Positions 41,893-55,253 of a stretch of 64,000 nucleotides of DNA are shown here, one piece after another; position 1 is the stretch's first letter; the number at the start of each line of letters is the position of its first letter. The position numbers were made by a program, and so were the translations under genes. The notes beneath the pieces are model-generated. The model had not been told where the DNA came from, did not search any database, and saw nothing but the letters and a program-made list of their open reading frames with translations. The stretch lies in contig DUPT01000021.1 of assembly GCA_012838225.1 (NCBI GenBank), forward strand, positions 1-64,000. Direction: 5' to 3'. The DNA comes from Tissierellia bacterium. GTDB taxonomy: Bacteria; Bacillota; Clostridia; Peptostreptococcales; Acidaminobacteraceae.

Positions 41893-42999
41893 GTGAAAAG
41901 AATAGGACTGATCGTAAATCCGATCGCCGGTATGGGCGGTCGGGTCGGACTTAAGGGCACCGATGGGGCCGACATTTTAGCCAAGGCCCGGCAAATGGGG
42001 GCCAGACCGGAGGCCAATGACAAGACCAAGCTGGCCTTATCGGGACTCCAGTCGCCGGACGCTGTCTTCATCGCTGCCCCCGGCGCCATGGGAGCCGATA
42101 CGCTCCAAGCGCTCGGACTCGAGCATGAGGTGCTGGCGATGTCGCTGGGAGACGAAACGACTCCGGCTGATACGACCAAGGCACTGGAGCTGATGCTTGA
42201 AAAGGAGCTCGACCTGGTCGTCTTTAGCGGCGGTGACGGGACGGCTCGTCAAGTAGCCGAGGTGATCGGGGACAAGGGATTGCCGGCCATCGGGATCCCG
42301 GCCGGTGTCAAGATCCACTCCTCGGTCTATGCCATGCGACCGGCCGCCGCCGGCGAGATGATCGCCCGCTTCATTGCGGCCGATGAGGTCGAGACGATGC
42401 TGGCTGAGGTCATGGATATCGATGAGGAATTGTTTCGCGAGGATGTCGTCTCAGCCAAGCTCTACGGCTATCTGACCATCCCGTCGTTTGAAGAGTTTCA
42501 GCGCTCCAAGGCCAGCGGCGGTGAAACGGATCGTGACACGAGCTATGCCATCGCCGAGACGGTGATCGACAATATGGACCCCGATGTCTTCTACTTGGTC
42601 GGCCCCGGCTCAACCACCGTCCCGATCATGGAGCTGTTGGAACAGCCCTACACACTGCTTGGCTTTGATGTGGTAAAGGATGGCCGGCTGATCCATAAGG
42701 ATGCCAATGAAGAGGTGCTGCTCGATATCAAGCAGCAGGGACCGATCAAGCTGATCCTATCGGTCATCGGCGGTCAGGGCTATCTCCTGGGTCGAGGCAA
42801 TCAGCAGCTCTCACCGGCGGTTTTGAAGGGACTGGATAAGACGGATTTCATCGTTGTCGCATCCAATGACAAGATCCGGCTGTTGGAGGGCCGACCGCTG
42901 CTACTCGATAGCGGCTCTCCCGAGATCGATGCCTTACTTCGGGGCTATCACCGGTTGGTGGTCGGACCGGATCGCTACTATGTCTATCCGGCCGAATAG
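41893..42999 (+). CDS. ATP-NAD kinase-family protein (AcoX-like)
   Basis: 368 residues. N-terminal LIVNPIAGMGGRVGLKGTDG and FSGGDGTARQVAEV, the GGDG motif of the NAD-kinase/diacylglycerol-kinase fold, place it in the ATP-NAD kinase-like family found with acetoin-catabolism (AcoX) genes. No acetoin genes are next to it. Whether it phosphorylates NAD is not established. GTG start at 41893 with AAAGGGA upstream. Single gene; ends in a bidirectional terminator. Confidence 0.85.
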   Translation: MKRIGLIVNPIAGMGGRVGLKGTDGADILAKARQMGARPEANDKTKLALSGLQSPDAVFIAAPGAMGADTLQALGLEHEVLAMSLGDETTPADTTKALELMLEKELDLVVFSGGDGTARQVAEVIGDKGLPAIGIPAGVKIHSSVYAMRPAAAGEMIARFIAADEVETMLAEVMDIDEELFREDVVSAKLYGYLTIPSFEEFQRSKASGGETDRDTSYAIAETVIDNMDPDVFYLVGPGSTTVPIMELLEQPYTLLGFDVVKDGRLIHKDANEEVLLDIKQQGPIKLILSVIGGQGYLLGRGNQQLSPAVLKGLDKTDFIVVASNDKIRLLEGRPLLLDSGSPEIDALLRGYHRLVVGPDRYYVYPAE

Positions 43000-43044: not shown

Positions 43045-43707
43045 TTATAGCTTATGGACTTGTTGTTTTAACCAATCGAACCACGGTGTCATGCCTTGGC
43101 CGGTCTTGGCACTGATCGGGATGACTCCGATCTCGGGATTGATCTTGGCCAGACGCCGGCGGAACAGATCGAGGTCGAAGTCGAAAAAGTCGGCCGCGTC
43201 GATCTTATTGACCAGGACCAGGTCGACGATGCTAAACATCAAGGGGTATTTGAGCGGTTTGTCGTCGCCTTCGGGGACGCTTAGGATCATGACATTCTTA
43301 TGGGCCCCGGTGTCGAATTCGGCCGGACAGACCAGGTTTCCGACATTTTCGAGGATGACGAGATCGAGGCCGGAGGGGTCGAGGGCTTCGATCCCCTGGC
43401 GGGTCATCTCGGCATCGAGGTGACACATGCCGCCGGTGTGGAGCTGGACCACCCTGGCACCGGTCTGATCGATCGAGCGGGCATCGACATCGGAGTCGAT
43501 GTCGGCCTCCATCACCCCGATCCGGATATCGTTTTTTAGTGCCTCGATGGTCGAGACCAGGGTGGTCGTTTTCCCCGAACCGGGAGAGCTCATCAGATTG
43601 ATGAGGAGTGTCTTGTCTTCTTTTAGCCGGTTTCTCAGCTCCTGGGCGGTCTGATTGTTCTGCTCAAAGATACCTTCTTTGATTTCAATGATTTTGATCT
43701 GACTCAT
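43045..43707 (-). CDS. hypB: Nickel-incorporation GTPase HypB
   Basis: 220 residues. P-loop SSPGSGKTT at 40-48, EADIDSDVDARSI, metal-binding C95-H96 in GGMCHLDAE, LVLVNKIDAADFF. The N-terminal His-rich or CCxxC nickel store of some HypBs is missing. It hands Ni to target enzymes (classically [NiFe]-hydrogenase) with GTP hydrolysis. ATG at 43705-43707 has GGAGG six bases upstream and overlaps the hypA end by 23 bases. No hydrogenase or HypCDEF genes are in the window. Confidence 0.95.
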   Translation of the reverse strand: MSQIKIIEIKEGIFEQNNQTAQELRNRLKEDKTLLINLMSSPGSGKTTTLVSTIEALKNDIRIGVMEADIDSDVDARSIDQTGARVVQLHTGGMCHLDAEMTRQGIEALDPSGLDLVILENVGNLVCPAEFDTGAHKNVMILSVPEGDDKPLKYPLMFSIVDLVLVNKIDAADFFDFDLDLFRRRLAKINPEIGVIPISAKTGQGMTPWFDWLKQQVHKL

Positions 43708-44053
43708 AATGATCCTCCACGGCGATTTGTTTGATCTGAAATTCCCGACCGCTAAGCATCTCAAACTGCTTGGATCGGCAGGTAGGGCAGATGCCCTGAC
43801 TGTCTCTTAGGTGATGGACCTGGCGGCAATCGAGGCATCGGCCCATGGCCGGGATGATCTCGATCTCAAGCTTTGTTTCTTCCAGGGTCGTTTGATGGAT
43901 AGCCGCGTCGTAGCAGTCTTCGATGAAGCGCGGAATGACTGAGGCGGCCTCACCGATCTGCAGGACGATCGTCTTTACCTTGGGTGAGCCGTTGGCTTTC
44001 GCGACCGCCTCGACTCGGCGGACGACCTCGAGCATGATGCTTAATTCATGCAT
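43685..44053 (-). CDS. hypA: Nickel-chaperone HypA
   Basis: 122 residues. The N-terminal MHEL motif supplies the nickel ligand His2; zinc site cysteines at 73, 76, 89 and 92 (CLDC, CPTC). Works with HypB. The ATG at 44051-44053 restores the MHEL start; a GTG two codons earlier is in frame but would bury it. The start lies within a few bases of the upstream oxidoreductase stop, so the three genes form one operon. Confidence 0.95.
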   Translation of the reverse strand: MHELSIMLEVVRRVEAVAKANGSPKVKTIVLQIGEAASVIPRFIEDCYDAAIHQTTLEETKLEIEIIPAMGRCLDCRQVHHLRDSQGICPTCRSKQFEMLSGREFQIKQIAVEDHYESDQNH

Positions 44054-44055
44054 GA

Positions 44056-46779
44056 TCACTTACCGGTCAGCGTTTTTTTGGCGCTGTGGACGGCTCGCTT
44101 GAGCTTGGTCTTGACGGCATTTCTAATGACGATCGGCTTGAGGTCCTCGATATAGACGCCCTCGACATCCGATACCTTCTCCAAGCCGATGGCGTCGAAT
44201 TTACACCGGACGGTACATTGACCGCAGCCGACGCATTGATATTCGTCGACATAGACCCGGCCGCAGCTCAGGCAGCGATCGGCCTCGAGTACGATCTGTT
44301 CGGGGGTAAAGCTTCGTCTCATGTCGCGGAAGGACTTGCGGGCGGCATCATCGAGCGGATCGATCTGTTGTCTGGGTTTTAAGTCGAAGCCCTGATAGTC
44401 GACATTTTGCTTATCGAAGGCCTGATAGTCTCGCTTGAGTCGACCCAAGAGAAGGCTTTGACCGGGCTGGACAAAGCGGTGGATCGAGATGGCGCCTTCT
44501 TTACCGGCGGCGATCGCATCAATGGCAAACTTGGGCCCGGTGTAGGCATCTCCGCCGACGAAGACGTCCGAAATGGCGGTCTGATAGGTGGTCGGATCGG
44601 CCTTTAGGGTCCGGCCCGGCATATACTCGGCGGCGGTGCCGGCGAGGAGATTGCCCCATTCGATCGATTGGCCGATCGATACCAGGACGTGGTCGGCTTC
44701 GAGGAAGTAGGTGGCGGCTTCATCGTATTCAGGCGAGAAGCGACCGTGGTCATCGAACACCCTCAGGCACTGCTTGAATTCGACGCCGGTGACCTGTCCG
44801 TCCTTTTGGAGGATGCGTTTGGGTCCCCAGCCGTTTTTGATCGTGATACCTTCGTGCTGAGCTTCAGCGATCTCTTCGGGCAGAGCCGGCATTTGGGCTT
44901 CGCTTTCGAGGCACACCATCGTCACCTCCTCGGCGCCGGCTCGGATAGCCGTTCGGGCGACGTCGATCGCGACATTGCCGCCGCCGATCACGATCGTTTT
45001 ACCGCTTAGGCTTTTTTCTTCTGTCAGATTGATGCGGCGCAGAAAATCGACGCCACTTATGACGCCCCGGGCGTCCTCGCCCTCGACGCCGAGCTTTCGG
45101 CCGCCCTGAGCACCGATGGCGATGTAGAAGGCCTGATAGCCTTGGGCTCTCAGCTCATCGAGTGTGATAGCCTGACCGACCTCGACGCCGGTCTTGAACT
45201 GAACGCCGAGTTCTCGCAGGACGTCGATCTCTGATTCGATGACATCGTTTTCTAACCGGAAATTGGGGATGCCCCAGGTCAGCATGCCGCCCAGCGCCGA
45301 TTCCTTTTCAAACACCGTGACCGAGTAATTATCGATCGCCAGATAGTAGGCACAGGCCAGACCGGCCGGGCCGGAGCCGATGACAGCGATTTTTTTGTCG
45401 GAATAATCATGTCGCTTTTGGGGGACAAAGCGGTGCTCACTGGTCATATCCTGTTCGGCAATAAACTTCTTGATCTCATCGATCGCGACCGAGTCATCGA
45501 GGCTGTTACGGGTGCATTCGTTCTCACAGTAGCGCGGACAGATATGGCCGCAGACGGCCGGGAAGGGGTTTTCCTTCTTGATCAGCTCGAGTGCTTCACG
45601 GTATTTTCCCTCAGAGGCGAGCTTGATATAGCCCTGGATGCCGATATGGGCCGGACATTCCGACTTACAGGGACTGGTACCGCCCTCCATGATGACTTGG
45701 CGATTGGTCCGATAATCGGGATTCCAGCGCTCGAGCCCACACGAGGCATTGTCCGGCCGATCGATATGCGGATCGACCTGAGGCAGCGGTGTTTTGGAGG
45801 CGACCTTTTGACCGAGGCGAAGGGCATTGACCGGGCAGTTCTCCACACACTCGCCGCAGGCGACGCATTTGTCGGGATCGATCCGGGCGACATAGTTCGA
45901 TCGGATAAAGTCCGGGTTCTGGAACATATTGGCGTTACGCATCGCCAGACAGCCACAGCCGCAGCAGTTACAAATGGCATGGGTCTTGCCTGAACCATCG
46001 AGGTTTGGGATCTCGTGCATCAGTCCGTTTTCCTCGGCCTGGCGCAGGATGGCCTTGGCTTCTTCGCGGGTGATTTGACGACCGCGACCGGTCGCTATGT
46101 AGATCTCGGCGCCGTGACCCATCTGGATACACATATCTTCTTTGAGGTGACCGCAGCCTTCGCCCATCGATTCACGGACCGTGCGGCAGGAGCAATTGGA
46201 GACGGAGAAGATCTCATTTTCGTCCAGATAGTGTGACAGTTCCTCATACGAGGCCCGGCGTGAATTGGAGTCGATGGCGCTCTCGATCGGGATGACGCGC
46301 ATCGGGGCCATCCCCATTGGGATCATGCCGGGGGCGATCAGACCCTTCTTCTTGCCATAGGCATCAAAGGCATAGGCGATCTCGGGATACTTCAGGGCAT
46401 CGGGGTGGTTCATAAACATTTCCATATGACCCGGCACCCAGACCTCGAGCCAGTACTCCTTGACGCCATCAACGGTTTCAAAGCTGCAACCGCCGGCATA
46501 GCATAGCTCGTCGATCAGCGGTTGGACCTGCTCGACCGGCTGGCCCAATGTCTCAGCGATCTGCTCGATGGTTTGTCGTTTTTTGAATTTGACGGCCATG
46601 CCGACCTCGGCCATCTCGTCTGTGACGAGGTGCTCCATGACAAAGTACTCCGGGTCATGATAGGTCAGGGCACCCTTTGAGCCGGGCTTGGTCCGATTGA
46701 TATGATTGGCAAAGGCCAAAAGGGTCGGACTCTTCCTGGTGGGGGTATAGGGGGCGGCATACGGGATGTGATCAGACAT
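44056..46779 (-). CDS. Multi-[4Fe-4S] FAD-dependent NAD(P) oxidoreductase (GltD/NfnB-like core)
   Basis: 907 residues with a modular build. Residues 1-280 form a cysteine-bearing module of its own (NCSCR at 195-199; CNCCGCGC at 270-277). A ferredoxin site C305-C308-C311-C315 follows, then a GltD-type Fer4 helical domain (CKSECPAH at 371, CGHICPRYC at 410), FAD loop GSGPAGLA at 468-475, NAD(P) loop GGGNVAIDVA at 599-608, and C-terminal cysteines (CLSCG 836-840, CVGCGQC 849-855). It should move electrons between NAD(P)H and a ferredoxin or partner. GGAGGA precedes the ATG. Operon with hypA and hypB. True substrate unknown. Confidence 0.85.
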   Translation of the reverse strand: MSDHIPYAAPYTPTRKSPTLLAFANHINRTKPGSKGALTYHDPEYFVMEHLVTDEMAEVGMAVKFKKRQTIEQIAETLGQPVEQVQPLIDELCYAGGCSFETVDGVKEYWLEVWVPGHMEMFMNHPDALKYPEIAYAFDAYGKKKGLIAPGMIPMGMAPMRVIPIESAIDSNSRRASYEELSHYLDENEIFSVSNCSCRTVRESMGEGCGHLKEDMCIQMGHGAEIYIATGRGRQITREEAKAILRQAEENGLMHEIPNLDGSGKTHAICNCCGCGCLAMRNANMFQNPDFIRSNYVARIDPDKCVACGECVENCPVNALRLGQKVASKTPLPQVDPHIDRPDNASCGLERWNPDYRTNRQVIMEGGTSPCKSECPAHIGIQGYIKLASEGKYREALELIKKENPFPAVCGHICPRYCENECTRNSLDDSVAIDEIKKFIAEQDMTSEHRFVPQKRHDYSDKKIAVIGSGPAGLACAYYLAIDNYSVTVFEKESALGGMLTWGIPNFRLENDVIESEIDVLRELGVQFKTGVEVGQAITLDELRAQGYQAFYIAIGAQGGRKLGVEGEDARGVISGVDFLRRINLTEEKSLSGKTIVIGGGNVAIDVARTAIRAGAEEVTMVCLESEAQMPALPEEIAEAQHEGITIKNGWGPKRILQKDGQVTGVEFKQCLRVFDDHGRFSPEYDEAATYFLEADHVLVSIGQSIEWGNLLAGTAAEYMPGRTLKADPTTYQTAISDVFVGGDAYTGPKFAIDAIAAGKEGAISIHRFVQPGQSLLLGRLKRDYQAFDKQNVDYQGFDLKPRQQIDPLDDAARKSFRDMRRSFTPEQIVLEADRCLSCGRVYVDEYQCVGCGQCTVRCKFDAIGLEKVSDVEGVYIEDLKPIVIRNAVKTKLKRAVHSAKKTLTGK

Positions 46780-46838
46780 GATTCCTCCTTCAACATGTGG
46801 TTGCTTTTATGGTAACGAATAGTCTCTCCGGTGACATT

Positions 46839-46860
46839 AGACAATGACGGTCCGATGTCT
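46839..46860. promoter_or_regulatory. Imperfect palindrome upstream of the oxidoreductase-hypAB operon
   Basis: 22 bases beginning AGACAA and ending TGTCT, the same ends and spacing as the inner 22 bases of the perfect palindrome at 47899-47922; the middle differs. Its minus-strand end TTGTCT can serve as a -35 with TATTCG 17 bases on. A second target of the nearby TetR regulator is possible but weakly supported. Confidence 0.35.
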
Positions 46861-46863
46861 AGA

Positions 46864-47838
46864 TTATTCGGCCAGGGCTTTGATGCGGCGATAGGCTGCC
46901 AGGTCGGTGTAGAGCTCCTGGGTATAGGGGTTTCGTTTGGTCTTAACGATCCGGTAGATCATATAGCCGAAGACGGCCGCATTGGTCAGCAGCGCCAGCA
47001 GTGACACCCCGAAATAGATCGTCGGCCGGTAGGTCGAAAAGACGGCGTATTTTCCGACATCCTGAAAATGAGGGAAGGTCTGAGCAAACATACACCAGAT
47101 GGCCAGGGTGTGGGCTCGGTGCTGCAGCCAAGCGCCGCGACCGAGGCTGAAGGCACACAGGGTAGGTGCCAGCAAAAGGGCCAGTCCGCAGTACCAGGCA
47201 TGGCCCGGCAGGGCATTGTAGGTATAGGCAAAATTCCACAGATCATAGGCGATGATCCAAAACCACAGCATATCGGGCCAGAGCATATCGCGGCTGGCAT
47301 CGGTTGCGGTGACTCTACGGATGACAATGCCAAAGGCACCGGTGATGGTCAGGATGTTCAGGATCCCGGCTAAGCCATTCAGATAATTCCAAGTGCCGCT
47401 CATCAGGATCTGGCCTTCAAACAATTCCTTGTTTAGGCCCATCAGACCGATCTGAACGTCTCGAGCAACGGCTTCGGCAATATTGATGGCCAGGATCAGC
47501 GGCGGAAAGATCAGGACCCATTTCTGATCCGACAGTCGCCAGATGATCCGGCCTGAGCTGTCGCGTCGTTGCCAGTGCCTGATCAGCCAGAAGCCGATAC
47601 AGCCGGCCAGGGCCGAATAGACCTTGGCGATATGGAACCAGTCGGTATAGGTCTTGTCTTTAAGGAGCGTAAACCACAGCAGACTGAGGCCGGCCGGCAG
47701 GACGATAAAGCTGATCACTGCGCCCGCTTTGGACCGGCGAGAAAACTCATTGAACAGGAACAGGGCGACCAGTATCAGCAGCCACATCCCCCAAGCGGAG
47801 ACCGGGGTGGCTCCGGCCTCGTGGTTAAAGGTAAACAT
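46864..47838 (-). CDS. DUF5692-family membrane protein
   Basis: 324 residues, about nine or ten membrane helices; ends in a short basic/polar tail (KTKRNPYTQELYTDLAAYRRIKALAE). It matches the DUF5692 family as I know it, conserved membrane proteins of unknown function. The segment WFWIIAYDLWNFAYTYNALPGHAWYCG, rich in Trp, Tyr and Asn, may line a ligand site. ATG at 47836-47838 has GGGAGG six bases upstream; 10 extra N-terminal codons are unlikely. It lies downstream of a TetR gene, with a perfect palindrome between them. Confidence 0.75.
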   Translation of the reverse strand: MFTFNHEAGATPVSAWGMWLLILVALFLFNEFSRRSKAGAVISFIVLPAGLSLLWFTLLKDKTYTDWFHIAKVYSALAGCIGFWLIRHWQRRDSSGRIIWRLSDQKWVLIFPPLILAINIAEAVARDVQIGLMGLNKELFEGQILMSGTWNYLNGLAGILNILTITGAFGIVIRRVTATDASRDMLWPDMLWFWIIAYDLWNFAYTYNALPGHAWYCGLALLLAPTLCAFSLGRGAWLQHRAHTLAIWCMFAQTFPHFQDVGKYAVFSTYRPTIYFGVSLLALLTNAAVFGYMIYRIVKTKRNPYTQELYTDLAAYRRIKALAE

Positions 47839-47898
47839 AAAAAACCTCCCAGAAATAGTTTCGCTCACTATTGTAGGAGGTCGAGTCGCAGAAAACGA

Positions 47899-47922
47899 TA
47901 GACAAACCGGCCGGTTTGTCTA
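47899..47922. promoter_or_regulatory. Perfect 24-base palindrome between tetR-like gene and DUF5692 gene
   Basis: Half-site TAGACAAACCGG followed by its exact reverse complement. Size and symmetry fit a TetR-family operator; it lies 30 bases after the tetR-like stop and 60 bases before the DUF5692 start. It could also fold as a terminator stem (8 base pairs, loop GGCC), but the following T runs are short. Confidence 0.65.
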
Positions 47923-47951
47923 ATTCTTTTATCGGGGATATCCCGTATGAT

Positions 47952-48506
47952 CTAGGTGGCGAAGCGCTGGAGCACCATACAGATGGTGCCGTCGACCATC
48001 TTCTCGAATTTATCGAGCAATTGGTCGGGCTTTAGCCTTCGGCCGGTCCGGGTCCACTCGGTCATGACACCGTTAAAGACGATCCGGTAGTAGTCGATGA
48101 CAAAGGCCTTGTCTTCGGGTGAGATGTGATAGCCGCCGGCAGCGATGCATTCGTCGAGCACTCCCTGAAGAAGAGAATTTGATACCGCGGTAAAATAGCG
48201 GTTGGCCTCGTCCCAGTAGCTGGAGGAATAGATATTCATGAAAATATCATGATTGTCATTGATAAAGGTGGTCGTGGTCAAAAAGCCGTGCTTCCAGGTG
48301 TCAAACGCTCGACCTCGCGACACTTCATCATAGATCTCCAAAAAGATCATGTCTTTAAGCAGCTCCATGATATTTTGATAGTGGTAGTAGAAGGTTTGGC
48401 GATTGACATTGGCCCGCTCGCAGATCTGGATCACGGTGATCTGATCGAGCGATTGCTGCTCGAGGAGTGAACGAAAGGCAGCTTGGATAGATTGTTTGGC
48501 GTTCAT
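47952..48506 (-). CDS. TetR/AcrR-family regulator
   Basis: 184 residues. N-terminal TetR helix-turn-helix: SIQAAFRSLLEQQSLDQITVIQICERANVNRQTFYYHYQNIMELL. The C-terminal part resembles the DhaS-like group. Ligand unknown. ATG at 48504-48506 with AGGGGG upstream; the ORF is open 22 codons further without support. A sigma-A promoter lies upstream. It probably controls the DUF5692 gene through the palindrome downstream, and perhaps itself. Confidence 0.88.
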   Translation of the reverse strand: MNAKQSIQAAFRSLLEQQSLDQITVIQICERANVNRQTFYYHYQNIMELLKDMIFLEIYDEVSRGRAFDTWKHGFLTTTTFINDNHDIFMNIYSSSYWDEANRYFTAVSNSLLQGVLDECIAAGGYHISPEDKAFVIDYYRIVFNGVMTEWTRTGRRLKPDQLLDKFEKMVDGTICMVLQRFAT

Positions 48507-48589: not shown

Positions 48590-49120
48590 ATGACACAGGA
48601 TATCTGGCAAAGGGCTGTGGCCTTTCATGGCCATGAATGCCCGGGCCTGGCGATCGGGGTGGCTGCCATCGAGGCGGCGAAGGAGATCCTGGGCGATATT
48701 TTTGGAGCCGAGCACGATGAGACGGTGGTCTGCATCAGTGAAAACGATGCCTGTGGTGTCGATGCCATTCAGTGTCTGGGCGGGTGCACGCTCGGTAAGG
48801 GCAATCTCATCCTGATCCCCCGAGGCAAGATGGCCTTTAGCTTCTTTCACCGCGAATCCGGACGAAGCCTAAGGCTGGTCTTAAAGTCTGATGCACTGGC
48901 GGCCTATGATACCAGACAGGAAAAGCAAACAGCCTTATTGATGGAGGATTGGCGACACTTTTTTACTATCACGCCGCCGCGGCATGAGCTGCCTAAAAAG
49001 GCCGAGATCTACCCGTCAAAGCGCTGTGAGAGATGTCTGGAAGCGACGGCCACGCCCTGGCTTAGCCTTCACCGGGGACAATGGATCTGTCGGGACTGTG
49101 AACATGAAGACCGCGACTGA
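48590..49120 (+). CDS. FmdE-family protein with C-terminal zinc ribbon
   Basis: 176 residues. N-terminal FmdE domain: FHGHECPGLAIGVAA, then CGVDAIQCLGGCTLGKGNL and GKMAFSFF, conserved His and Cys of the family (named for formylmethanofuran dehydrogenase subunit E). C-terminal CERC and CRDC pairs form a zinc ribbon. Bacterial members lie next to molybdenum, tungsten or other metal genes; the true role is unknown. AAGGAGGACAAGTT precedes the ATG. It overlaps the following ABC permease gene by 17 bases, so it belongs to the metal-chelate import operon. Confidence 0.85.
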   Translation: MTQDIWQRAVAFHGHECPGLAIGVAAIEAAKEILGDIFGAEHDETVVCISENDACGVDAIQCLGGCTLGKGNLILIPRGKMAFSFFHRESGRSLRLVLKSDALAAYDTRQEKQTALLMEDWRHFFTITPPRHELPKKAEIYPSKRCERCLEATATPWLSLHRGQWICRDCEHEDRD

Positions 49121-50180
49121 ACCCGATAGCCTGATCGATTATGCCCTTCTCAGGCGAAAAAAGCAGCGACTGATCCGGTGGCTTTTCCTGGGCTGTCTCG
49201 GAGCGGTGCTGCTATCGATCCTACTGGGGGCCTCGAGTCGGAGCCTAAAGGAGATCGGGATGGCTCTTCTGATGAGAGGCGATGCCACGACCCGGCTGCT
49301 ACTCTGGCAGATCAGGCTGCCGAGGATCACCGGGGCGCTCATTGCCGGTGCCGGTTTGGCTCTGTCAGGCTGTGTGATGCAAAATATACTGAATAATCCG
49401 TTGGCGTCGCCCTCGACGCTCGGTGTATCGAGTGGGGCGGCCTTTGGAGCCAATCTGGCCATCATTTTGTTTCGAGCCGGTGATGTCTCGGCGATCGGCC
49501 GAGGCTGGCTGCTCGACCAGCCGTATCTGATCAGTCTGTCGGCTTTTGTGGTATCGCTTAGTGCGTCGGTCATCGTCTTGGCTTTGGCCAGGCTTCGCCG
49601 GTTTTCGCCGGAAGCGATCCTGCTGGCCGGGGTGGCTCTTAGTTCGATCTTTTCTGCCGGTACGGCCATCCTGCAGTACTTTGCCAGTGATACGCAACTC
49701 AGTGCAGCCGTGTTTTGGTCGTTTGGTGATCTGGGGCGGATCAATTGGCACGAGATCGGGTGGCTGACACCGGCCGTTTTGATCGCCGGCTGTTTGTTCA
49801 GCCGTCACAGCTGGGACTATAATGCCTTGGCGATCGGTGAGGCCGGAGCGCTGAGTCTGGGCGTTCAGCCAAAGAAGCTTCGTCTGGTGAGTATGCTTGG
49901 TGCGGCCGCCTTGACGTCACTGTGTGTCTCATTTATCGGTTTGATCGGGTTTGTCGGCTTGATCGCTCCGCAGGCGATGCGGCGGCTGATCGGCGGGGAT
50001 CACCGCTACCTGATCCCGGCCAGTGCCTTGGCCGGAGCGATCGTTTTGCTGTTGGCAGATACCTTGGCCCGGACGGTGCTATCGCCGATCGTCCTACCGG
50101 TCGGGGCCATCACCGCCCTACTCGGCGGGCCGATGTTTCTCTATCTGCTGATGGCTCGGAGGAGGCAAAACGGATGTTAA
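49104..50180 (+). CDS. FecCD-type ABC transporter permease
   Basis: 358 residues, about ten membrane helices. FecCD signatures: LRLPRITGALIAGAGLALSGCVMQNILNNPLASPSTLGVSSGA-like region, FWSFGDLGR, and GFVGLIAPQAMRRLIGGDHRYLIPASALAGA. Transports iron-siderophore, heme, cobalamin or another metal chelate with the neighbouring ATPase and lipoprotein. The ATG at 49104 lies inside the end of the FmdE gene; the ORF is open further upstream but reads as out-of-frame FmdE. Confidence 0.92.
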   Translation: MKTATEPDSLIDYALLRRKKQRLIRWLFLGCLGAVLLSILLGASSRSLKEIGMALLMRGDATTRLLLWQIRLPRITGALIAGAGLALSGCVMQNILNNPLASPSTLGVSSGAAFGANLAIILFRAGDVSAIGRGWLLDQPYLISLSAFVVSLSASVIVLALARLRRFSPEAILLAGVALSSIFSAGTAILQYFASDTQLSAAVFWSFGDLGRINWHEIGWLTPAVLIAGCLFSRHSWDYNALAIGEAGALSLGVQPKKLRLVSMLGAAALTSLCVSFIGLIGFVGLIAPQAMRRLIGGDHRYLIPASALAGAIVLLLADTLARTVLSPIVLPVGAITALLGGPMFLYLLMARRRQNGC

Positions 50181-50920
50181 CGGTCGAACAGCTGAGCTTT
50201 AGCTACGGCTCACAGAGGGTGCTTCAAGATGTTTCTTTTAAGGTAGCGGCCGGCCGCTGTCTGGCGGTACTGGGTAAAAACGGCGTCGGCAAGAGCACGC
50301 TTCTAAAAAGTCTGCTGGGGGTGCTAAAGCCCGAAGGTGACATTCGGTGGCACGATCAGTCGCTGATCGGGGCGAAACCGAGACAGACCGCGCAGTGGCT
50401 GGCCTATGTGCCTCAGCAGGTGACGTTTGGTCAGGGAAGTGTCTTTGAGGCGGTGCTTCTGGGTCGAAAGCCGTTTATGGACCGGCAGCCGTCCCGGGCG
50501 GATCTCAGTCTTGTCGCTCAGATCATCCGGAGTCTAGGCCTTTCGGAGCTGGCGCTGCGACCGGTCGAAGCACTTAGCGGCGGAGAGAGACAAAAGGTCG
50601 CCTTGGCCAGGGCCTTGGCTCAGGAGCCGTCGGTTCTTCTGCTGGATGAACCGACCAGCAGTCTGGATATGAAAAATCAGTTGGACTGGGTCAAGCTGAT
50701 GCGGCGAGTCATCACCGAGCATCATCTGTGTGCGATCGTCACGATGCACGACATCAATCTGGCGACCCGGTTGGCCGATGAGTACCTGCTCCTAAAAGAT
50801 GGCCGAGTCCATGCCATAGGCGATGAGACGGTCCTAAAGCCGGAGCATATCTCGGCGGTCTATGGCGTATCGAGCGCCTGCCATAGGATCGATGGCCGCT
50901 TGGTCGTCTTGGCAAGGTAG
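50174..50920 (+). CDS. ABC transporter ATP-binding protein (FepC/BtuD type)
   Basis: 248 residues. Walker A GKNGVGKSTLLK, Q-loop VPQQVTF, signature LSGGERQKVALARAL, Walker B LLLDEPTSSLD and switch His in TMHDINLA. Energises the FecCD-type importer. ATG at 50174 overlaps the permease stop by 7 bases, with GGAGGAGG upstream. Seven bases ahead of the substrate-binding gene. Confidence 0.94.
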   Translation: MLTVEQLSFSYGSQRVLQDVSFKVAAGRCLAVLGKNGVGKSTLLKSLLGVLKPEGDIRWHDQSLIGAKPRQTAQWLAYVPQQVTFGQGSVFEAVLLGRKPFMDRQPSRADLSLVAQIIRSLGLSELALRPVEALSGGERQKVALARALAQEPSVLLLDEPTSSLDMKNQLDWVKLMRRVITEHHLCAIVTMHDINLATRLADEYLLLKDGRVHAIGDETVLKPEHISAVYGVSSACHRIDGRLVVLAR

Positions 50921-50927
50921 GTGAAGT

Positions 50928-52019
50928 ATGAGTAAAAGATGGATGATCGGTTGGCTGATGCTTCTACTTTTGGCGGCTTGCTCCGGCCCGGTGGAGACCG
51001 GCCGGACGGTCCGGGATCTGATGGGGCGAGACGTCTTCGTACCGGAGGAGCCGACCCGCTTTGTCTGCATCGGTCCCGGGGCGCTTCGGCTGTATTCGTA
51101 TGTCGCGCCGGCTGAGCAATTGGTCGGGATCGAGGCGATCGAGCGAGCAGCCGAAGGCAGAGCCTATGTCCTGGCTAATCACGAGCTCTTCGATCAGCTG
51201 CCGATCATCGGTCCCGGCGGACCCGCTCAGGCGCCCGATCCCGAGCAGCTGATGGCGGTAGCACCCGAGGTCATCTTCACGACCTATGGGGCTGATGCCA
51301 AAGCGCTCGATAGCCTGCAGCAAAAGACCGGCATTCCGGTGGTCGGGCTAAGCTATGGCGATCATGCAGTGTATAATGCATCGATCGAGCGATCGATCCG
51401 GTTGATCGGACAGGTGAGCCATCAGTCGGAGCGGGCGGAGCAGGTGGCTGAGCGCATCAAGGCTTGGCTGGCTGAGCTGTCGTCTCGGACAAAAGACATT
51501 GCCGATAAGGACAAGCCCAAGGTCTATATCGGAGCCCAGTCGCATCAGGGCTCGCATGGCATCGAGAGCACGACCGGTCAAGAAAGTGTGCTGATGACAC
51601 TCCACGCCCAAAACGTAGTCGATGAGTCGGGGATCGATCGCCCGGTCCAATGGGACCGGGAGGCACTGTTACTGAGTGATCCCGATATCATCTTTCTCGA
51701 TGGCGGGGGACTCGGCAATGTCCTGAGTGATCTGTCGCGGCATCGGGCTTTCTATCAGAGTCTTCGAGCAGTCGCTGATGGGCAGACGCACCTGCTTCTA
51801 CCGACCAATCACTATGCCAAAAACATCGACGTCAGTCTGGCCAATGCCTTCTATATCGGTCACGTCCTCTATCCGGAACAATTTAGTGGGCGCGATCCGG
51901 CGGCTGTCTGTGATGAGATCTGCCACTTTCTGGTCGGAAAGCCCCTCTATCGTGAGATTGCGGATTATTCCTACGGCGGCTATCAGTCCTTTCATCTGCT
52001 CGATCCGGTCGAAGAATAG
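50928..52019 (+). CDS. ABC transporter substrate-binding lipoprotein (metal chelate)
   Basis: 363 residues. Lipoprotein signal MSKRWMIGWLMLLLLAACS with lipobox LAAC (Cys 18). Periplasmic-binding type III fold (BtuF/FepB): RTVRDLMGRDVFVPEEPTRFVCIG and IFTTYGADAKALDSLQQKTGIPVV. Ligand unknown; the FmdE neighbour suggests a metal anion or chelate rather than cobalamin, but B12 cannot be excluded, as the next operon needs it. Last gene of the operon. Confidence 0.9.
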   Translation: MSKRWMIGWLMLLLLAACSGPVETGRTVRDLMGRDVFVPEEPTRFVCIGPGALRLYSYVAPAEQLVGIEAIERAAEGRAYVLANHELFDQLPIIGPGGPAQAPDPEQLMAVAPEVIFTTYGADAKALDSLQQKTGIPVVGLSYGDHAVYNASIERSIRLIGQVSHQSERAEQVAERIKAWLAELSSRTKDIADKDKPKVYIGAQSHQGSHGIESTTGQESVLMTLHAQNVVDESGIDRPVQWDREALLLSDPDIIFLDGGGLGNVLSDLSRHRAFYQSLRAVADGQTHLLLPTNHYAKNIDVSLANAFYIGHVLYPEQFSGRDPAAVCDEICHFLVGKPLYREIADYSYGGYQSFHLLDPVEE

Positions 52020-52253: not shown

Positions 52254-53930
52254 ATGTTTGATCGATCGAAGTTGGATCAAATGAAAGACAAAGCAAACCA
52301 ATACGAAGCCCAGGTGGAGAAATCGATCGCCCGTTTTCCCGAACGGCGTGAAACCTTCGTCACCGGCTCCAATTCGGAAGTTGAGCGGCTCTACACCCCG
52401 GAAGATATTGCCGAGCAAGACTTCCTCGAGGATATCGGTTATCCTGGTTCCTATCCCTTTACCCGTGGTGTCCAGCCCAATATGTACCGGGGTCGTCTGT
52501 GGACGATGCGGATGTATGCCGGTTTCGCGACGGCGGAAGAATCGAATAAACGGTATAAATACCTGGTCGAGCAGGGCTCGAGCGGCCTGAGTGTCGCCTT
52601 CGATCTGCCGACCCAGATCGGGTATGACTCCGATCACGCCTTAAGTGAGGGTGAGGTCGGTAAGGTCGGTGTCGCGATCGACTCCTTGGCCGATATGGAA
52701 GTCCTCTTTGATGGCATTCCGCTCGACAAGGTCTCGACCTCGATGACGATCAATGCTCCGGCCAGCATCCTGCTGGCGATGTATATCGCCGTGGCAGAGA
52801 AGCAAGGGGTGTCGGCCGATAAGCTTCGCGGCACGATCCAAAATGACATCCTGAAGGAATACATCGCCCGCGGGACGTATATCTTCCCGACGGAGCCGTC
52901 GATGAGACTGATCACCGATATCTTTGCCTACTGTTCGGAGCATGTGCCGCAGTGGAATACGATCAGTATCTCGGGCTATCATATCCGAGAAGCCGGCTCG
53001 ACCGCCGCCCAAGAGGTCGGCTTTACGCTGGCTGATGGGATCGCTTATGTCGAAGCGGCGCTGGAAGCCGGACTGCAGATCGATGATTTTGCGCCGCGTC
53101 TGAGCTTTTTCTTCAATGCCCATAACGACCTGCTTGAAGAAGTCGCCAAGTACCGGGCCGCTCGCCGGATGTGGGCTCGTCTGATGAAGGAGCGCTTCGG
53201 CGCCAAGAAGGAAAAGAGCATGCAGCTCAAGTTCCATACCCAGACTGCCGGTTCGACCCTGACGGCTCAACAGGCTGAAAACAATATCGTTCGGGTCACC
53301 ATCCAGACCCTGGCGGCGGTGCTGGGTGGAACGCAATCGCTCCACACCAATTCTAAGGACGAAGCACTGGCTCTGCCGAGTGAGCAATCGGTCCGAACAG
53401 CCCTTCGGACGCAACAGATCGTAGCCTATGAATCCGGCGTTACCAATACGGTCGATCCGTTAGCCGGTAGCTACTATATCGAAGCCCTGACCGATCAGAT
53501 TGAACAAGAGGCGATGGACTATATCCGCCGGATCGATGACATGGGCGGAACAGTCGCTGCCATCGATAAGGGCTATATCCAGCGCGAGATCATGGACGCG
53601 GCCTATGAGTATCAGCGGGCAGTCGAATTGAACGAAGCCATCGTAGTCGGCGTCAATAAGTATCAGGTCGAGGAAGAATCACCCACCGGACTGCTCCGGG
53701 TCGATCCGGTCGTCGGTGAGAATCAAACCAAAAAACTGCAGGCACTGCGCTCAAGCCGTGACAATGAAGCGGTCGAGGCCGCCCTGGCCGGACTGAAAAA
53801 AGCCTGTGAAGGTGATGAGAATGTGATGCCCTTTATCATCGAAGCCGTCAAAACGTATGCCACCCTCGGTGAGATCGCCGATGTCATGCGCTCGGTGTTT
53901 GGTGAGTACCAACAGGCTGTCATAGTTTAA
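52254..53930 (+). CDS. Methylmalonyl-CoA mutase, large (catalytic) subunit
   Basis: 558 residues, a stand-alone mutase barrel. Family segments: [68 protein letters not shown] and [13 protein letters not shown]. It turns succinyl-CoA into (R)-methylmalonyl-CoA (reversible) with adenosylcobalamin bound by the small subunit encoded next. AAGGAGG site before the ATG. First gene of a seven-gene-plus region of the methylmalonyl-CoA pathway. Isobutyryl-CoA mutase is a less likely reading given epimerase and decarboxylase downstream. Confidence 0.94.
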
Positions 53931-53940
53931 GGAGAATAGA

Positions 53941-54336
53941 ATGGAACAGATGATTCGTGTTTTAGTGGCCAAGCCCGGTCTGGACGGTCATGACCGAGGA
54001 GCCAAGGTGATCGCTCGGGCGCTGCGTGATGCCGGGATGGAAGTGATCTATACCGGTCTGCGCCAGACACCGGAGCAGATCGTGGCGGCGGCCATCCAAG
54101 AGGATGTCGATTGCGTTGCCATCAGCATCCTGTCCGGTGCCCATAATACCCTGCTGCCCAAGGTAGCTGCCTTGCTAAAAGAGCAGGGAGCGGAGGATAT
54201 TTTGATGCTGGGCGGCGGCGTGATCCCGGATGAAGACATTCCCTTCCTGCTCGATAATGGCATCAAGGCCGTATTCACGCCCGGGACTCCGACCTCGAAG
54301 ATCGTTGAGTGCATCAAAGAAAATGTGACCAAATGA
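53941..54336 (+). CDS. Methylmalonyl-CoA mutase, cobalamin-binding small subunit
   Basis: 131 residues, B12-binding domain with D15-x-H17-x-x-G20 ([10 protein letters not shown]), [12 protein letters not shown] and GGGVIPDED, the full base-off/His-on cobalamin pattern. Combines with the large subunit. AAGGAG site before the ATG, 10 bases after the large-subunit gene; ends overlapping meaB (ATGA). Confidence 0.95.
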
Positions 54337-55253
54337 AATGGACTGAACCCCGCCAGATCGCCCGCTTGATCAGTGCCGTTGAGGACGGGCGGCCCGGTCA
54401 TGAGGAGCAGCTAAAGGAGCTGTTCTATCAGACGGGACAGGCCCATGTCATCGGCGTGACGGGTCCGCCCGGCGCCGGCAAAAGCTCATTGACTGATAAG
54501 CTGGCCAAGTATTATGTCGACCAGGGCAAAAGGGTCGGCATCATCGCGGTCGATCCGACCAGTCCGTTCAGCGGCGGTTCGATCCTGGGCGACCGTATCC
54601 GGATGAACGATCTGACGACCAATCCCAATGTCTTTATCCGAAGCATGGGTACTAGGGGTCACCTCGGAGGTCTGGCCTCCTCGACCCACCTGGTCAAGCA
54701 GATCCTGGATGGCGCCGGCGCCGATATCATCTTTATCGAGACGGTCGGTGTCGGTCAATCCGAAGTCGAAATCGTTCAGGCAGCCGATACGGTGCTGATG
54801 GTGATGGTGCCGGGACTGGGTGATGATATCCAGAGCATGAAGGCCGGTATCATGGAGATCGGTGATGTCTTCGCCATCAATAAGGCCGACCTGCCGGGAG
54901 CCGATCGGGCCAAGATCGATATCCAGAATATGCTGACCTTTCAGCCGGAAAAGGACTGGTTGCCTCTGGTTCAGATGGTGTCGGTCAAGGAGAACACCGG
55001 CATCGAGGAACTGGCCAAGGCGATCGAGATGCATCGGAGCTTCTTGAACGAAGAGGACCGTTTGGCCATCAGACGAAAACGTAATACCCGCAATGAACTG
55101 ATCGATCTGCTCTATGATAAGCTGTATCGGCGCCTGGTGACCCAGGGCAATTTCGAGCGGTATCTCGAGCAGATCGTTGAGAAGACACTCGATCCCTATA
55201 GTGCGATCGATAAGCTGTTAGAAGATTTGAGGAGTGAGAATGAAAACGATTAA
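54333..55253 (+). CDS. meaB: Methylmalonyl-CoA mutase-associated GTPase MeaB
   Basis: 306 residues. P-loop GPPGAGKS at 44-51, [33 protein letters not shown] and NKAD. The G3E-type GTPase loads and protects adenosylcobalamin on the mutase. ATG overlaps the small-subunit stop by 4 bases and has no clear own ribosome-binding site, so it depends on coupling. Confidence 0.95.

Follow-up and report, generated by a model that had tools for sequence, protein, structure and literature searches.

A hypAB operon around an IsrA-type flavoprotein: what does its nickel-insertion pair serve?

Which protein do the nickel-insertion proteins HypA and HypB serve when their genes lie beside a large Fe-S flavoprotein and no hydrogenase? 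The question is raised by contig DUPT01000021.1 of a Tissierellia bacterium, whose first 64,000 nucleotides (the window) were analysed. A minus-strand unit at 43045-48506 carries, in transcription order, genes for a TetR-family regulator, the membrane protein DUF5692, a 907-aa oxidoreductase, HypA and HypB, with short or overlapping junctions. A first reading of the letters made without database searches (the sequence-only reading) had placed hypA, hypB and the flavoprotein in one operon; this is borne out by the open reading frames (ORFs), confirmed at the same coordinates, and by profile searches, and the unit reaches further than was then proposed, to the DUF5692 and TetR genes upstream on the same strand. 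The interpretation favoured here, at a probability of roughly 0.6, is that the operon encodes an NAD(P)H-dependent reductase of IsrA clade 9 with its own nickel-insertion pair, and that HypAB serve a module of this enzyme and not a hydrogenase.

Linkage of HypA and HypB to the oxidoreductase

Among 80 homologous loci with named organisms, 75 have hypA downstream of the oxidoreductase gene on the same strand and 71 have hypB near it; for the 63 loci with 3 kb or more on each side, the counts are 61 and 58. These frequencies argue that the linkage is not due to chance. DUF5692 is found near the oxidoreductase in 31 of the 80. A hydrogenase as partner of the oxidoreductase was considered and rejected: a motif scan of the 80 loci gave a single [FeFe] hydrogenase within 8 kb (locus L083) and no recognisable [NiFe] large-subunit motif, apart from a DPC..C match in another locus (L095), within a frame of 240 aa. 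The sequence-only reading had held that its proposal would fall if the enzyme were common beside a known hydrogenase, and such an arrangement is confined to that one [FeFe] locus. In the metagenome-assembled genome of a member of the Spirochaetia, two tandem oxidoreductase paralogs are flanked by hypB and hypA (L060:951-6424).

HypA and HypB could instead have as client a different nickel enzyme, with its gene in another part of the genome, the flavoprotein being a mere neighbour, as would suit their classical clients, [NiFe]-hydrogenase and urease. The window assembly comprises 77 contigs, with a completeness of about 97%, and the genome-wide searches for nickel enzymes took in PF00374, HypD, carbon monoxide dehydrogenase (CODH) and Lar_N, leaving urease, glyoxalase and other small nickel enzymes outside their range, which gives this explanation some room. 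Within that scope, neither [NiFe]-hydrogenase (PF00374) nor HypD was found, and the same searches did detect positive controls; lactate racemase (Lar_N) was not found either, and the sole match to the CODH model was a 28.8-bit fragment against a cut-off of 478. This weak fragment lies within a 594-aa frame (L102, G000:C2:3516-3953), possibly a hybrid-cluster protein. The earlier remark that no hydrogenase, CODH or urease is in view can be extended to the genome for [NiFe]-hydrogenase and true CODH, while urease and [FeFe]-hydrogenase stood outside the genome-wide search.

The distribution of HypA speaks more directly against a client elsewhere. Among 41 relatives, HypA exceeds its family cut-off in precisely the 13 genomes that have a near full-length oxidoreductase, adjoining the enzyme gene in each, and HypD occurs in one genome, which is without the oxidoreductase. 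At the level of the class, 26 of 293 genomes carry the oxidoreductase and all 26 carry HypA, which lies within 2 kb for 27 of the 31 oxidoreductase genes. In sixteen of these 26 genomes HypD is missing and a single HypA adjoins the oxidoreductase; the other ten have HypD and carry a further HypA that is not adjacent to the enzyme gene. For the genomes lacking HypD the association reaches a Fisher p of 1.8e-19, a value that ignores phylogenetic relatedness and hence overstates its strength. HypA without either oxidoreductase or HypD occurs in eight class-level genomes; in seven the match is weak (50-68 bits) and leaves the family's first positions uncovered, and in the eighth (G274) it comes from an operon with a module-only protein, described below.

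In a tree of 73 HypA sequences, built on a short alignment of 113 columns, the 41 oxidoreductase-linked HypAs form one clade (support 99/88), separate from 26 non-adjacent HypAs even where both kinds occur in one genome; the tree label HYD on the latter means merely that they are not beside the oxidoreductase. The sister group of the linked clade consists of four non-adjacent HypAs, all from family f34. The window HypA, the sole HypA of its genome, belongs to the linked clade and so stands apart from the HypA of [NiFe]-hydrogenase maturation, although both proteins of the window pair are of the same families as the maturation factors and have nickel-ligand motifs in common with them. As HypA tracks the oxidoreductase both in its presence across genomes and in its location within them, with a clade of its own, a client elsewhere in the genome is very improbable. 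The sequence-only reading had left two options, nickel going to an enzyme encoded elsewhere or N-terminal cysteines of the flavoprotein that concern a metal; genome searches, co-occurrence and the HypA clade favour the second. HypA is quantitatively dedicated to the oxidoreductase, and this dedication and the separate HypA clade, together with the module-only hypAB operons, are added here to the published account of the family.

An oxidoreductase of the IsrA clade 9 family

Profile searches place a Fer4 domain at residues 299-321 of the oxidoreductase (Cys305, 308, 311 and 315), Fer4_20 at 368-447 and Pyr_redox_2 at 463-759, followed at about 840-860 by another Fer4 site (Cys836-859). Residues 1-290 gave no Pfam match, and the proteins returned by a PDB sequence search with residues 1-345 were all of ferredoxin type and matched near the Fer4 site. 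Near full-length homologs were found in relatives and genome contigs at 54-79% identity; 72-92 full-length homologs can be aligned with it over their whole length of about 900 aa, N-terminal module of about 270 aa included, at about 60% identity. An AlphaFold2 (AF2) model built from 72 homologs reached pLDDT 84.5 and pTM 0.86, and a structure search with the full model (the module alone was not searched) gave matches confined to residues 305-866. Residues 366-865 resemble the large subunits of NfnABC (9bov_A; Z 39.1, rmsd 2.2, 477 residues, 36% identity) and StnABC (8oh5_C; Z 38.0), with Fer4_20, a GltD-like FAD/NAD(P) core and a C-terminal ferredoxin in common (PDB 9bov, 9n5u and 8oh5; Z 36-39). 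The ferredoxin sites and the GltD-type core noted from sequence reappear in the domain and structure comparisons. The C-terminal ferredoxin described there as extra is present as well, but is ordinary in this type of protein, since residues 366-865 fit the NfnABC/StnABC large subunits.

It could be argued from this likeness, at about 36% identity, that the enzyme is mainly an NAD(P)H:ferredoxin oxidoreductase of Nfn/Stn type, for electron transfer or bifurcation, whose N-terminal module would be no catalytic site but an outlet resembling a ferredoxin; stand-alone forms of the module look ferredoxin-like and have Fer4 sites. NfnABC and StnABC work, however, with partner subunits, none of which is among the genes identified beside the oxidoreductase, and a counterpart of the N-terminal module is absent from the matches reported there. 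Such a reading also leaves the dedicated HypAB unexplained, and it appears unlikely.

The family itself has been described. Kronen et al. (2023) present IsrA, a 901-aa putative isoprene reductase of Acetobacterium wieringae and the most isoprene-induced protein of strain ISORED-2 (log fold change 10.7), whose N-terminal 270 residues are domain-less with a six-cysteine site, two CxC motifs and further cysteines forming a proposed cluster V (PMC10134865). There the isr operon carries HypA and HypB, the host genome is reported to be without [NiFe]-hydrogenase, nickel in IsrA is proposed, and 988 IsrA homologs have as neighbours HypA (frequency 0.73), HypB (0.56), DUF5692 (0.4) and TetR (0.21); a separate 350-aa ferredoxin of the isr operon is said there to resemble the IsrA N-terminus (PMC10134865). 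IsrA was independently named a candidate ene-reductase in a study of strain Y (PMC9765523). By published description, the window enzyme agrees with clade 9 in its size of about 900 aa, the Pfam-free N-terminal module of about 270 residues, two extra ferredoxin sites, the DPD-domain-II Fe-S domain, the FAD/NAD(P) core, the cluster V-type cysteines, the hypA, hypB, DUF5692 and TetR neighbours and a genome in which [NiFe]-hydrogenase was not found. The order TetR-DUF5692-enzyme-hypA-hypB differs from that of the isr operon. The window operon belongs to the wider IsrA clade 9 family and is no copy of the isoprene operon; the suggestion of an undescribed system gives way to one whose oxidoreductase, HypA, HypB, DUF5692 and TetR were published together in 2023 (PMC10134865).

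The N-terminal module as candidate nickel acceptor

Nine cysteines of the module are invariant in 92 homologs, arranged as C196-x-C198 and C270-x-C272 plus C209, C217, C273, C275 and C277, as are His211 and His255. The module, which had seemed unusual, also occurs as stand-alone proteins of about 330-460 aa without a flavin part, nearly all with a Fer4 site and the module cysteines and resembling ferredoxins. In three genomes a module-only protein is followed by hypA and hypB (L128, L145 and L147), that is, 3 of 29 stand-alone modules examined, with short flanks. HypAB thus accompanies the module in two different settings, beside the full enzyme and beside module-only proteins, and the module-only operons point to the module as the putative nickel acceptor. 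The HypAs of L145 and L147 group with the non-oxidoreductase lineage, which suggests a separate HypA-module pairing. Tentatively, and at somewhat less than even odds, the nine-cysteine module may be a catalytic Fe-S unit with nickel, of a type so far unproven and distinct from the known nickel enzyme classes, matured by HypAB without HypCDEF, fused or stand-alone, with HypAs drawn from different lineages.

Two of the stand-alone loci deserve separate mention. One operon consists of a stand-alone module, a shortened 84-aa hypA without zinc domain, and hypB (L160:7237-9303); its genome, G274, yielded no match to HypD or to the full oxidoreductase. In another genome (G470), the gene of an FAD-dependent oxidoreductase, a possible partner of the stand-alone module, lies directly upstream of a module-hypA-hypB operon (L159:7622-8938).

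Several observations weigh against the favoured interpretation. Stand-alone modules from genomes without HypA (L106, L109 and L110) keep all nine cysteines, so these are by themselves no marker of nickel binding and may hold only Fe-S clusters. A single residue separating all HypAB-linked from unlinked modules was looked for and none was found; His211 is confined to the full-length enzyme, His255 is shared with stand-alone modules that have no HypAB linkage, and in L128 residue 275 is Asp. The isr operon has a second hypA and a separate 4Fe-4S ferredoxin, and the window operon has neither; the case for IsrA itself, in both papers, is made on proteomic and comparative evidence (PMC10134865, PMC9765523). 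The two histidines were also tried as a general nickel signature and rejected, since some stand-alone modules with no hypAB beside them have His255, and the HypAB-linked stand-alone modules lack His211; a stand-alone group of 420-460 aa is without both.

It could likewise be proposed that HypA and HypB have an accessory part here, in the handling of Fe-S or zinc or in assembling the module, and that the mature enzyme contains no nickel. This would agree with the cysteines kept where HypA is missing and with the HypA of the L128 operon, which has 84 aa and no zinc domain. Against it stands the conservation of known nickel ligands, the start-His-Glu of HypA in 76 of 77 homologs and the Cys-His motif of the HypB G-domain in 70 of 72, and the proposal is improbable. 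The window HypA begins with Met-His-Glu and has two CxxC zinc motifs, and HypB keeps the G-domain Cys-His and Cys nickel ligands, the N-terminal CC-x-C metal motif being absent. HypB passes its TIGR00073 cut-off of 121.2 (Table 1); HypA, well matched by PF01155, falls slightly below the TIGR00100 cut-off (87.1 against 88.1).

The model of a HypAB-served reductase proposes that NAD(P)H would reduce FAD in the GltD/NfnA-like core, and that electrons would run via the 4Fe-4S clusters of the Fer4_20 domain and of the C-terminal and N-terminal ferredoxin sites to a possibly nickel-containing metal site in the nine-cysteine module, to which HypB and HypA, rather than to a hydrogenase, would deliver nickel. 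This site would reduce the substrate, probably at an activated or conjugated C=C bond, a class suggested solely by the induction of IsrA by isoprene. TetR would probably control the unit, and DUF5692 may be an accessory membrane protein. Neighbouring genes, namely an amine-oxidase-like FAD protein in 12 loci, the L159 FAD protein and an oleate hydratase reported beside the gene in A. woodii (PMC10134865), are no more than suggestive of a fatty-acid or isoprenoid substrate; a literature search for work tying linoleic acid biohydrogenation to hypAB found nothing further.

The gene family is common in anaerobes, in Clostridia, Spirochaetes, Chloroflexi and Deltaproteobacteria, and in Shewanella. 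If nickel sits in the module, a further class of nickel enzyme, one that takes part in the reduction of unsaturated compounds, would be added, and the module-only operons supply a small separate protein for a direct test of the nickel question.

Features of the unit and its flanking DNA

Table 1. Genes and protein parts of the minus-strand unit (positions in the window).
Feature	Coordinates	Strand	Basis
TetR-family regulator (DhaS-like), first gene of the unit	47952..48506	-	PF14278 1.6e-19, TetR_N 8.1e-7
DUF5692 polytopic membrane protein, about 324 aa from ATG 47838	46864..47838	-	PF18948 1e-114
IsrA-type Fe-S flavoprotein oxidoreductase, 907 aa	44056..46779	-	profile searches, homologs, AF2 model
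Oxidoreductase N-terminal cysteine-rich module, residues 1-325	45805..46779	-	invariant Cys/His in 92 homologs
Oxidoreductase electron-input part, residues 326-907: Fer4_20, FAD/NAD(P) GltD-like core, C-terminal Fer4 site	44056..45804	-	AF2 model alignment
hypA, nickel metallochaperone, 122 aa from likely ATG	43685..44053	-	PF01155 104.6 bits
hypB, GTPase, about 220 aa from likely ATG 43707	43045..43707	-	TIGR00073 246.8 bits

The likely starts of hypA (ATG 44053) and hypB (ATG 43707) were chosen because the start context fits. The TetR gene starts with ATG at 48506, its ORF being extendable to 48572 with a TTG start, and a promoter-like TTGGTA-17-TATAAT lies at 48572-48544. In a locus of the same genus (L003) the TetR ortholog directly precedes the oxidoreductase gene. 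The AF2 model of DUF5692 (pLDDT 87) consists mostly of long helices and gave no match below E=0.05 among PDB folds. The TetR and DUF5692 genes are separated by a perfect 24-bp palindrome, TAGACAAACCGGCCGGTTTGTCTA (47899-47922), present in a single copy in the genome, which could be either a TetR operator or the terminator of the TetR gene; in a same-genus locus a different, terminator-like hairpin takes its place. An Rfam search of 38-64 kb had no matches, so a riboswitch was not found there.

Downstream, a NAD-kinase-like protein, far under the NCBIfam NAD kinase cut-offs, is encoded convergently with hypB at 41893-42999. On the other side, a divergent cluster at 48590-52019 encodes an FmdE-like protein, a FecCD permease, an ABC ATPase-like ORF and a periplasmic binding protein, possibly a metal or metal-chelate importer adjoining the nickel-chaperone operon. 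Beyond it, at 52254-55253, lie genes for a methylmalonyl-CoA mutase subunit and a MeaB GTPase.

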